Shown here piece by piece: positions 52,935 through 56,469 of a DNA stretch of 64,000 bases. Source of the stretch: Iamia majanohamensis (GTDB taxonomy: Bacteria; Actinomycetota; Acidimicrobiia; Acidimicrobiales; Iamiaceae); assembly GCF_028532485.1 (NCBI RefSeq), contig NZ_CP116942.1:1240001-1304000 (forward strand). Reading direction: 5' to 3'. Within the stretch, counting starts at the first letter, position 1; the number at the start of each line of letters is the position of its first letter. A program made the translations under genes and the position numbers. The notes below the pieces were generated by a model, which was given only the letters and a program-made list of their open reading frames with translations, was not told the origin of the DNA and did not search any database.

Positions 52935-53068
52935 GGCGTCCCAGTGTGGCGAGGCCGGTCGCCGATCCGAACGTGACCGTGTCCACCCGTGGTGGTCTCG
53001 CCACCCTGGGTGGGGCAAGGCCCCGGTGCGGTCCCGCCCGGCCCGGGCCCCCTGCGCCCCCGAGCGGG

Positions 53069-53074
53069 TACCGT
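53069..53074 (+). promoter_or_regulatory. -10 box of leaderless PrmA-like gene
   Basis: TACCGT ends 7 nt before the GTG at 53082. Confidence 0.55.
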
Positions 53075-53081
53075 CGCCGCG

Positions 53082-53930
53082 GTGACCGGGGTGCGCGTGG
53101 TCGAGGTGGACGTGGCCGACGACGAGGTCGACCTGGCGTCGGGGCTGCTCTGGAGCGCGGGGGTGACGGCGGTGGCCGAGCACCCCGCGCCGGCCGGGGG
53201 CGTGCGCCTGCGGGCCGCCCTCCCCGACGGCGGGGTGAGCGCGGTCGAGGGGGCGATCGAGGGCCGCTGGGCGGTGCGGGTGGTGGACGTGGCCGACGAC
53301 GGCCTCGACGCCTGGCGGGCCCACGCCCAGGTGGTGACCGTCGGGCCCCGCCTCGTCGTGCGCCCGCCCTGGGTCCCGCTCGGGCCCGTCGTCCCCGGTG
53401 CCGTCGTGGTGGAGGTCGACCCCGGGGCCGCCTTCGGCCACGGTGCCCACCCCACCACCCGCCTGTGCCTCGCCGCGGTCGAGGCCATGCTGGCGGCCCG
53501 CCCGGGCGTGACGGTGCTCGACGTGGGGTGCGGCAGCGGCGTGCTGGCGGTGGCCGCGGCCGCCCTCGGCGCCGAGCGGGTGGTGGCCGTCGACGTCGAC
53601 CCCGTCGCCATCGACGTCACCCGGGAGAACGCGGCCCGCAACGACGTGGAGGCCGTGGTCGACGCCCGGCTGGTGGACGCCGAGGACGCCGACGACCCCC
53701 TCGGCGCCGCACCCGGCCGGGCCGACCTGGTGGTGGCCAACATCGGGGCCGGCGCCCTGCGCGCCCTGGCCCCGCACCTCCGGTCCCGCGTCGGGGCCGA
53801 CGGCCGCCTGGTCCTGAGCGGCCTGCTCGATCCGCCCGACGCCGAGGTGGTGGCCGCCCACGCCCCCCTCGTGGAGGTCCGGCGGGCCACCGAGGACGGC
53901 TGGGTGGCCCTCACCCTCGCCGCCCCCTGA
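53082..53930 (+). CDS. PrmA-like (ribosomal protein L11) methyltransferase
   Basis: 282 aa, S-adenosylmethionine-dependent methyltransferase. The N-terminal substrate-recognition part (about 1-90) is followed by the PrmA block [23 protein letters not shown]-binding [20 protein letters not shown], acidic VVAVDVDP, and catalytic-region [13 protein letters not shown]. The family trimethylates ribosomal protein L11, modifying the GTPase centre of the 50S subunit. GHGAH replaces the more usual GTGxH. GTG 53082 starts it; the ABC-F gene follows with its own signals, giving two translation-related genes in a row. Confidence 0.88.
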
Positions 53931-53967
53931 GCGCGGAAACCGAGGCGGCCTGGGGCGCGGCCGGGGG

Positions 53968-53973
53968 TACCGT
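53968..53973 (+). promoter_or_regulatory. -10 box driving ABC-F leader
   Basis: TACCGT ends 7 nt before GTG at 53981, the leaderless spacing seen at many genes here. The predicted transcript would begin at that GTG. Confidence 0.45.
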
Positions 53974-53980
53974 GCCCGCC

Positions 53981-53989
53981 GTGAGCTGA
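53981..53989 (+). other. candidate two-codon leaderless upstream ORF
   Basis: GTG AGC TGA at the predicted first base of the ABC-F transcript. A minimal start-Ser-stop ORF could hold a ribosome beside the downstream hairpin. Confidence 0.3.
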
Positions 53990-53993
53990 CGCG

Positions 53994-54021
53994 CCGGTCC
54001 CCGCCCGCCCTCGACCGGAGG
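53994..54021 (+). promoter_or_regulatory. hairpin overlapping the ABC-F ribosome-binding site
   Basis: CCGGTC (53994-53999) pairs exactly with GACCGG (54013-54018), whose last two bases begin the GGAGG ribosome site (54017-54021) of the TTG start at 54029. The structure would partly mask the site. Confidence 0.4.
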
Positions 54022-54028
54022 TCTCCCG

Positions 54029-55702
54029 TTGCCGTCTGCTCCCGCCCTCACCCTCGCCGCCCACGGCATCCGCCTCGAGCGCGGCGCCGCCACCGTGCTG
54101 GCCGAGGTCGACCTGTCGGTCTCCGCGGGCGACCGCCTCGGCCTCATCGGCCCCAACGGGGTGGGCAAGTCCACCCTCCTGGCGGTGCTGGCCGGCACCC
54201 TCGTCCCCGACGCTGGGCGCGTGGCCCTCACGCCGCCCGACGCGGTGGTGGCCCTGCTCGCCCAGGAACCGGTGCGCGACCCGGCCGAGACGGGCCGGGC
54301 CCGCCTGGCCCGACGGACCGGCACGGCGGCCGCCCAGGACGAGCTGGAGGCCGCCACCGAGGCCCTGGCCCGGGGCGACGCCGGGGCCGACGATCGCTAC
54401 GCCGCCGCCCTGGAGCACTGGCTCGCCGTCGGCGCGGCCGACCTCGACGCCCGGGTGGGCGGCGTGCTGGCCGAGGTGGGCCTGGACGACGACGTCGTCG
54501 ACCGGCCCACCAGCGACCTCTCCGGCGGCCAGGCCGCCCGCCTGGAGCTGGCGGCGGTGCTGCTCACCAGGGCCGACGTGCTGCTGCTGGACGAGCCCAC
54601 CAACGACCTCGACTTCGACGGCCTGCGCCGCCTGGAGCGGGCCGTCCGGGACCACCCGGGCGCGGTGGTCGTCGTGTCCCACGACCGGGCGTTCCTGGAG
54701 CGCACCGTCACCGGCGTGGTCGAGCTCGACGAGCACCACCGCACGGCCCGCACCTACGCCGGCGGGTGGCTCGCCTACCAGGAGGAGCGGGCGACCGACC
54801 GGGCCCACGCCGAGGAGGCCTACGCCACCTACGCCGCCACCCGCGACGACCTGCGGTCTCGGGCCCAGCAGGTGCGGGAGTGGTCCACCCAGGGGACGGC
54901 CAAGGTGCGGCGGTCCGGCGAGACCGACAAGTTCATCCGCCACCACAGGGTGCAGACCAGCGAGCGCCTGGCCGGCAAGGCGGCCCAGGCCGACCGGGCC
55001 CTGTCCCGGCTGGAGGAGGTGGAGAAGCCCTTCGAGGGCTGGGAGCTCCGCCTCGACCTGGCCGAGGCGGAGCGGAGTGGGGCGGTGGTCGCCGTCCTCG
55101 ACGGGGCCGTGGTCGAGCGACCGGGGACCGCCGGTGCGCCCGGGTTCCGGCTCGGCCCGGTCGACCTCGAGGTCCGGGCCGGCGACCGCCTCGTCGTGGC
55201 CGGGCCCAACGGGGCCGGCAAGACCACCCTCGTCCAGGCCCTGCTGGGCCGCCTGCCGCTCGCCGCCGGGACCGGCCGGGTCGGGCCGTCGGTGGTCGTC
55301 GGCGAGGTGGCCCAGGCCCGCACCGCCCTCACCGGCGCCGGCACCCTGCTCGACGCCGTGCTGGCCGCCACCGGCCTCACGCTGGCCGAGGCCCGGTCGC
55401 TGCTGGCCAAGCTCGGCCTCGGCGCCGACGACGTGGGCCGCCCGGCGGCGTCGCTGTCGCCGGGGGAGCGCACCCGGGCCTCGCTGGGCCTGCTCATGGC
55501 GGTGGGCACGAACTGGCTGGTGCTCGACGAGCCCACCAACCACCTCGACCTGCCCGCCATCGAGCAGCTGGAGGCGGCGGTGGCGACCTGGACGGGCACG
55601 CTGCTGGTGGTGAGCCACGACCAGCGCTTCCTGGAGGCCGTGGCCGCCGAGGGCAGCCGGCGGGTGGAGGTCGAAGCCGGGCAGGTGCGCGAGGTGCGGT
55701 GA
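54029..55702 (+). CDS. ABC-F family ATPase (ribosome-associated)
   Basis: 557 aa with two ABC domains and no membrane segments, the hallmark of ABC-F proteins that act on the ribosome (translation rescue or antibiotic protection). Domain 1: Walker [10 protein letters not shown] (41-49), signature [10 protein letters not shown], Walker [14 protein letters not shown]. The linker between (about 255-350), Arg/Lys/Glu-rich, is the P-site tRNA interaction motif region. Domain 2: [36 protein letters not shown]. Start TTG 54029 with GGAGG 7 nt upstream. Its leader has features of translational attenuation. Confidence 0.92.
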
Positions 55703-55950: not shown

Positions 55951-56071
55951 CGGCGGAGAGCCTGGCACGTCCGTGCGGCGGGTCCCCGGCGCGCGGGGGC
56001 GGCAGGGTAGCGGACGCGCCCACATCGAGCGCGAACCCTTGCCCGACAAGGCGTTCCGCGTCCGAGGGTGC

Positions 56072-56100
56072 TTGACCCGCCCGATCTGATCGGCTCAGAT
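56072..56100 (+). promoter_or_regulatory. sigma-70-type hup promoter with palindrome in spacer
   Basis: TTGACC, a 17-bp spacer, then TCAGAT, 54 nt before the hup start. The spacer contains the perfect palindrome CCGATCTGATCGG (56081-56093), a likely operator. A CCTTG/CAAGG dyad lies just upstream near 56038-56052. Confidence 0.6.
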
Positions 56101-56154
56101 GCCTGGAGCCCGGAACCACGGGCACCGAACATCCACGATCCAGGAGGTTGGCCA

Positions 56155-56469
56155 GTGGCCAACGTGACCAAGGCCGATTTCATCGCTCAGGTGGCTGCCC
56201 AGGCCGGCACCGACAAGACGACTGCTGCCGCGGTCATCAAGGCCTTCGAGGAGACCGTCCAGGCGACGGTCAAGAAGGGCGACTCCATCGTCCTCACCGG
56301 CTTCCTCAAGTTCGAGCAGGGCCAGCGCAAGGCCGGCACCGCCCGCAACCCGCAGACCGGCGAGCAGGTCAAGACCAAGGCCAAGAAGTACCCCAAGGTC
56401 TCGGCCGGCACCTCGCTCAAGAAGGTCGTCAACAACGAGTCCCCGGCCCCCAAGCTGGCCAAGGTCTGA
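56155..56469 (+). CDS. hup: HU-family nucleoid DNA-binding protein
   Basis: 104-aa histone-like protein that bends and compacts DNA. VTKADFIAQVAAQAGTDKTTAAAVIKAFEETVQATVKKGDSIVLTGFLKFE is the dimer core; the flexible DNA-binding arm is AGTARNPQTGEQVKTKAKKYPKV with the conserved RNP. It lacks the long Lys/Ala tail of mycobacterial and streptomycete HU variants. GTG at 56155 with a perfect AGGAGG 7 nt upstream; strong SD plus strong promoter fit high expression. Codons are highly biased (AAG, GTC). Confidence 0.96.
   Translation: MANVTKADFIAQVAAQAGTDKTTAAAVIKAFEETVQATVKKGDSIVLTGFLKFEQGQRKAGTARNPQTGEQVKTKAKKYPKVSAGTSLKKVVNNESPAPKLAKV

Follow-up and report, generated by a model that had tools for sequence, protein, structure and literature searches.

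How a gene can be controlled from an upstream reading frame that consists of a start codon, one sense codon and a stop is the question raised by a locus of Iamia majanohamensis, in which such a frame precedes the gene of an ABC-F protein. The window analysed here is a stretch of 64,000 nucleotides (C1:1240001-1304000) of the host genome, a single contig of 4.58 Mb. A sequence-only reading of the window had proposed that a ribosome on this mini-ORF keeps a hairpin in front of the ABC-F gene open, so that drugs acting on initiation or termination could induce the gene. The elements of the locus are the following.

53968..53973, forward strand: TACCGT, -10 element of the TANNNT type
53981..53989, forward strand: leaderless mini-ORF GTG AGC TGA, its first G being the predicted +1
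53994..53999, forward strand: CCGGTC, left arm of an SD-masking hairpin, +14 to +19
54013..54018, forward strand: GACCGG, right arm, overlapping the first GG of the Shine-Dalgarno (SD) sequence
54017..54021, forward strand: GGAGG, SD of the ABC-F gene, 7 nt before TTG, anti-SD duplex -10.2 kcal/mol
54029..55702, forward strand: ABC-F protein gene, TTG start at 54029-54031, 557 aa, two ABC_tran domains

The positions of the hexamer, the mini-ORF, both arms, the GGAGG and the TTG were all correct in the sequence-only reading; TACCGT lies 7 nt upstream of the GTG, and the mini-ORF begins 48 nt upstream of the TTG.

The ABC-F gene and its neighbourhood

The two ABC_tran domains of the 557-residue protein, together with NF000355 (ribosomal protection-like ABC-F) as the nearest curated NCBIfam model, bear out its earlier assignment to the ABC-F class. 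The match to NF000355 reaches 352.6 bits, which is under the cut-off of 380, and the lower-ranked models are TlrC/CarA/OleB/SrmB with 245.3 bits and EttA with 237.2. The distance from H-loop 1 to Walker A 2 is 176 aa, corresponding to a long interdomain linker; it amounts to 173 aa in Vga(A), 165 in a SrmB/TlrC-type protein and 142 in actinobacterial EttA-type proteins. The gene was found in only 67 of the 395 genomes of the class (E <= 1e-120) and is thus accessory. Model scores, linker length and accessory distribution favour, without proving, a role in ribosome protection, so that the label "antibiotic-protection" given to the gene earlier stands as to the ABC-F class and is probable as to the function, the NF000355 score being below its cut-off.

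The leader region comprises the 98 nt between the end of a PrmA-like gene (53930) and the ABC-F start. The PrmA-like methyltransferase gene (window 52989-53930; TIGR00406 150.7 against a cut-off of 183.15) lies directly upstream of the leader, and the end of a similar gene is visible upstream of the orthologue L014. A small gene at 56068-56469 of the window encodes an HU/IHF-like domain, which matches the IHF-alpha model with 59 bits, under its cut-off; the gene either carries a long extension at the N terminus or starts further downstream.

Uniqueness of the arrangement in the genome

The promoter-plus-mini-ORF arrangement is not due to chance, since TANNNT-N7-RTG-NNN-TGA has one match in the 64-kb window where 0.01 would be expected, the looser TANNNT-N6-8-RTG-NNN-TGA occurs a single time in the 4.58-Mb genome, both strands counted, and the same gene carries it in four genomes of the genus. 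The three other genus genomes contain the pattern exactly once each, about 50 nt upstream of the ABC-F orthologue, at the following sites.

G001:C3:129150: before the ABC-F orthologue
G002:C1:1185734: before the ABC-F orthologue
G003:C60:7164: before the ABC-F orthologue

A general promoter feature of the genome was considered and rejected on the same ground, the pattern being single. The two-codon and the start-stop versions of the pattern occur once each elsewhere in the host genome (L178 and L179), neither of them before an ABC-F gene.

Pattern matches before other genes of the genus resembled chance, with one exception. At L184 (G021:C50:2181-2202, minus strand, in a genome of the same family) TACCGT is followed after 7 nt by GTG CGC TGA and, 48 nt on, by a TTG start; the product of the gene behind it resembles a phosphate-binding PstS lipoprotein. 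Inspection of the list of other genes with a WhiB7 box and a mini-ORF in the 395 genomes revealed no recurring gene and mostly chance matches in AT-rich genomes; the pattern used there allowed GAAA only and misses most true ABC-F cases.

Conservation across the class

Orthologues were taken from 41 relatives, from the 395 class genomes (67 with the gene) and from a named genome collection. In 31 loci the same order is seen: a -10 element (TANNNT in 28, a relaxed hexamer in three), 6-9 nt, ATG or GTG, zero to three codons, a stop and then the ABC-F start. The start codon is followed by no sense codon in five leaders, by one in 15, by two in ten and by three in one. From the RTG to the main start there are 46-93 nt, from the mini-ORF stop to the main start 35-84 nt, and most of the ABC-F starts are preceded by a recognisable SD. 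The strict pattern is present in 28 of 83 loci, compared with 0.13 +/- 0.36 in dinucleotide shuffles. Conservation of the mini-ORF, on which the sequence-only reading had staked its case, is therefore seen both in the four genus genomes and in the 31 loci, which span 12 families. The leaders L040 and L041 carry the unit GCTTCTGGCTTTCCGA in differing copy numbers, which makes them 76 and 93 nt long and leaves mini-ORF and SD untouched.

The reading frame itself appears to be under selection. Among the 30 RTGs situated at a set distance from a TANNNT, with the gene's own start excluded, a stop within three codons is found in frame in 28 and in the other two frames in 0 of 30 and 0 of 30. Such frame-specific stops would be expected neither of a DNA site nor of chance, and thus point to selection on translation from the RTG. 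The encoded peptides are in turn dissimilar (M*, V*, VS*, VE*, VR*, VK*, MRL*, MTD* and others). As the second codons vary and five leaders lack any, a nascent-peptide sensor was considered and is unlikely, and the GTG-Ser-stop highlighted in the sequence-only reading is to be amended: the serine codon is not conserved, the shortness of the ORF is.

A probable WhiB7/WblC-type promoter

In an alignment of the 31 leaders with the RTG as +1, AT content peaks at -44 to -41, a position at which the window carries a distinct element.

53936..53940, forward strand: GAAAC box, WhiB7/WblC-like, -45 to -41 from the predicted transcription start

The motif GAA[ACT] starts at -46 to -44 in 17 of the 31 leaders, compared with 0.76 per 3-nt bin elsewhere (maximum 4), and GAAA-N26-30-TANNNT-N6-8-RTG occurs in the host genome once, at the ABC-F leader. 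The WblC/WhiB7-activated promoters of S. coelicolor have a GAAAWY motif, 3 bp before a weakly conserved -35 element, a spacer of 16-19 bp, a TANNNT and a transcription start 7-8 bp downstream of the -10 element (PMC7157823). The distances of box and TANNNT in our leaders match this geometry (GAAWC at -45 to -41), and a -35 hexamer is not conserved across the 31 leaders, as in the WblC promoters (PMC7157823). An ECF-sigma promoter was also considered for the GGAAAC box; the distance of 26-27 nt from box to -10 element fits the WblC geometry. Both the -10 spacing and, independently, the WblC-like box point to a transcription start at the RTG, so that in the window the mRNA is predicted to begin with the G of the GTG at 53981. 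The ABC-F promoter is accordingly taken by us to be of the WhiB7/WblC type, with putative membership in the regulon.

Among eight Wbl matches in the host genome, one has the EPWGVWGG motif followed by the AT hook KRRRGRPPK, which marks it as WhiB7-type.

C1:237871-238047, minus strand: L223, WhiB7-type Wbl gene, EPWGVWGG plus AT hook

None of the NCBIfam models reached E 0.001 against L223. By eye, its upstream region, in which TTGACG follows an AT-rich stretch, contains a uORF starting with ATG and a terminator-like repeat, rich in GC and followed by a T-rich run, and resembles the known whiB7 attenuator leaders.

Modelled masking of the Shine-Dalgarno sequence

The hairpin described in the sequence-only reading has held up in part. 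Its sequence is present, and folding of the isolated 50-nt leader yields the CCGGTC/GACCGG helix (-13.3 kcal/mol); with 12 nt of the coding region included, the probability of the helix falls to about 0.02, the SD then being masked by other pairings. Within the genus a GACCGRAGG segment is retained. The exact helix is found in two of the four close relatives examined (L011 and L016), is absent from L010 and L014, and was rejected as the conserved unit.

What appears to be conserved is the masking. In the folding models, freeing the SD and the start codon of the 31 leaders costs 12.0 kcal/mol on average, compared with 8.8 for spacer-shuffled controls, energies that describe the isolated RNA and are silent on folding during transcription. 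When the first 4, 8, 12, 14 or 16 nt are blocked, the cost decreases to 11.3, 10.3, 8.3, 6.5 and 6.2 kcal/mol, respectively, and stays flat past 16 nt, while the shuffled controls remain at 8.8-8.0 throughout. The plateau suggests that the partner of the SD lies within +1 to +16; for vmlR, a ribosome whose P site holds the start codon gives a toeprint at this same distance of 16 nt (PMC9226507). The relief exceeds the mean of the leader's own controls in 28 of the 31 leaders and is without excess in L024, L025 and L031; the Stouffer z of 12.8 is overstated because the leaders are related, although the direction is clear. For the window leader alone the relief is 3.5 against 1.1 +/- 2.1, a value reached by 13% of the shuffles and therefore not significant. 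Across the 31 leaders, however, the modelled masking and its relief by a footprint at the 5' end are conserved and significant, which agrees with the earlier proposal that a ribosome bound there keeps the SD open. Judged from sequence and folding models, the conserved parts are thus the shortness of the mini-ORF and the masking of the SD rather than the serine codon or the exact hairpin.

Proposed mechanism

We propose a two-layer induction of the accessory, probably ribosome-protecting ABC-F protein, to which we assign a probability of roughly 0.6. The first layer would be the WhiB7/WblC-type promoter, with its GAAAC box and TACCGT, and the second a translational attenuation that senses arrest on a start codon. 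As transcription would start at the G of the GTG, the mRNA would open with the leaderless, nearly empty ORF GUG-AGC-UGA. A 70S ribosome would bind the 5'-terminal GUG without an SD, form a single peptide bond at most and leave after termination, whereupon the leader would fold and mask both the SD and the ABC-F start. The first peptide bond or the release would be blocked by lincosamides, pleuromutilins and streptogramin A, and such drugs may also block release on the bare start-stop ORFs. The ribosome thus held on the start codon would cover approximately the first 16 nt, the very stretch that pairs with the SD region, and the exposed SD would allow translation of the ABC-F gene. Since any second codon, or none, suffices, the device should report start-codon arrest instead of a nascent-peptide signal, and its likely inducers are drugs acting on the first peptide bond or on release. 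A translating or terminating ribosome would cover nearly the same stretch, hence the contrast between the on and off states would hinge on dwell time. For the class as a whole, we consider it an evenly balanced proposal that leaderless start-stop and start-X-stop ORFs constitute a sequence-independent sensor of start-codon arrest, the smallest attenuator, with the mRNA 5' end as ribosome binding site.

Other explanations share parts of this scheme. Any 70S ribosome on the 5'-terminal RTG might open the SD, in which case the leader would have no drug specificity and would report free or idle 70S as in starvation, hibernation or a block of initiation. Ribosomes of this kind do bind leaderless starts, as on the 5'-uAUG mRNAs of E. 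coli (PMC4965119), the footprint effect requires mere presence on the start codon and bare start-stop ORFs are tolerated, but the short-uORF ABC-F genes studied so far respond to start-codon-arresting drugs, and we view such an occupancy sensor as unlikely. It is rather improbable that the ribosome merely opens the SD in passing or shields the 5' end and so keeps expression steady without sensing anything, a role suggested for the axe-txe minigene. A two-codon minigene does raise txe expression in cis, possibly via mRNA stability (PMC8708949), and 5'-uAUGs alter downstream expression in E. coli (PMC4965119); yet in a constitutive coupling SD masking beyond that of shuffled controls would serve no purpose, and 35-84 nt from stop to start are long for reinitiation.

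The early stop might also do nothing more than dispose of ribosomes that start on an accidental RTG at the transcription start, and actinobacterial mRNAs beginning with RTG do get translated (PMC4633059). A single base change would remove an unwanted RTG, however, whereas it is kept at +1 in all 31 leaders and TANNNT-N6-8-RTG upstream of ABC-F orthologues exceeds the shuffles by 30 to 1.5, which makes a guard ORF very improbable. We give equally little credence to the view that translation of the mini-ORF controls an attenuation of transcription, whether Rho-dependent or intrinsic. Such a mechanism operates at vmlR and is proposed for are5sc, lmrC and others, and its Rho variant is compatible with the sequence; on the other side, no terminator-like site was found when an intrinsic terminator was sought in the leader, for which reason intrinsic-terminator attenuation was rejected, the leaders measure only 46-93 nt, and the SD itself serves as the right arm. 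With no intrinsic terminator in the leader, the two-layer device was placed solely with the translational kind of attenuation.

Comparison with known systems

In both of the closest known systems, the uORF has three codons (MIN in vmlR, PMC9226507; MLV in are5sc, PMC12421871), and drugs of the lincosamide and pleuromutilin type stall initiating ribosomes on it. The are5sc gene of Streptomyces coelicolor (ARE5 ABC-F; PMC12421871) is likewise an actinomycete ABC-F gene of the WblC regulon, which in Iamia is putative, with a very short uORF; ribosomes halt at its start codon in the presence of lincosamides, pleuromutilin and streptogramin A, as is proposed here. In contrast, it has a 232-nt 5' UTR, a dedicated ribosome binding site for the uORF and a terminator/anti-terminator model (PMC12421871), whereas the Iamia-type leaders have the uORF at the mRNA 5' end, are 46-93 nt long, lack a terminator and may be reduced to start-stop. 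The vmlR gene of Bacillus subtilis (PMC9226507) shares the ABC-F product, the short uORF, arrest of the initiating ribosome, proposed here, and the masking of the SD; its MDN, MDK and MRK variants also work, and the SD-masking hairpin forms a further layer (PMC9226507). It differs in its SD-led uORF, its 219-nt leader and transcription attenuation as the main layer (PMC9226507).

Partial parallels exist beyond the ABC-F genes. The leaderless short ORFs of mycobacteria (cysteine attenuators; PMC4633059) are also actinobacterial uORFs with a 5'-terminal RTG and proposed cis control of the downstream gene, but they are longer and encode a poly-Cys sensing peptide, whereas here there are zero to three codons of free sequence. 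The two-codon minigene of axe-txe (PMC8708949) similarly is a minimal ORF that affects a downstream gene, although not one shown to be leaderless or drug-responsive. In E. coli a 5'-terminal AUG on an SD-led mRNA affects the downstream gene, the AUGXXXUGA leaders concerned being made by mutation and not natural (PMC4965119).

The hallmarks of an ABC-F attenuator, a short conserved uORF and a structure tied to the position of the ribosome, were both found in silico among the 31 leaders. Compared with the vmlR and are5sc attenuators, which it is proposed to resemble in its working, the putative device would be new in being leaderless, with a minimal ORF, a short leader and no terminator; the full texts searched, which included few of the subscription papers, contained no description of a leaderless start-stop ABC-F leader.

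Leaderless orthologues and implications

The leader is not required by every member of the family, since in 33 of 86 loci a -10 element lies 5-10 nt before the ABC-F start itself, which corresponds to a leaderless ABC-F mRNA. This state is seen or probable in relatives from Arthrobacter, Gordonia and Streptomyces, and leaderless orthologues share the box (8 of 28, background 0.53). In the protein tree the mini-ORF state extends over the 12 families, interspersed with leaderless and other states, and nine changes between mini-ORF and leaderless are needed, so that the two arrangements have been swapped several times. A shift of the main start to a downstream position may have released a leaderless RTG for use as a sensor. 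In a deep leaderless set (L058, L068, L069, L071, L072, L074, L077, L079-L081, L083-L087, L089, L092 and L096) the ABC-F start lies about seven codons later than in the window, and some members have a GAA box at -45.

In the known ABC-F attenuators each uORF has a ribosome binding site to itself, and a terminator is often present as well. In the present leaders the proposed sensor is pared down to a start codon at the end of the mRNA and a stop, an arrangement kept over 12 families. Similar elements may have been overlooked, as start-stop ORFs are too small for gene annotation and the usual small-ORF searches to pick up. Should the model prove true, the arrest of an initiating ribosome alone, without a peptide, would suffice for control, leaderless initiation would have a regulatory role, and a leader of about 50 nt would provide a tool to detect inhibitors of the first peptide bond or of release.
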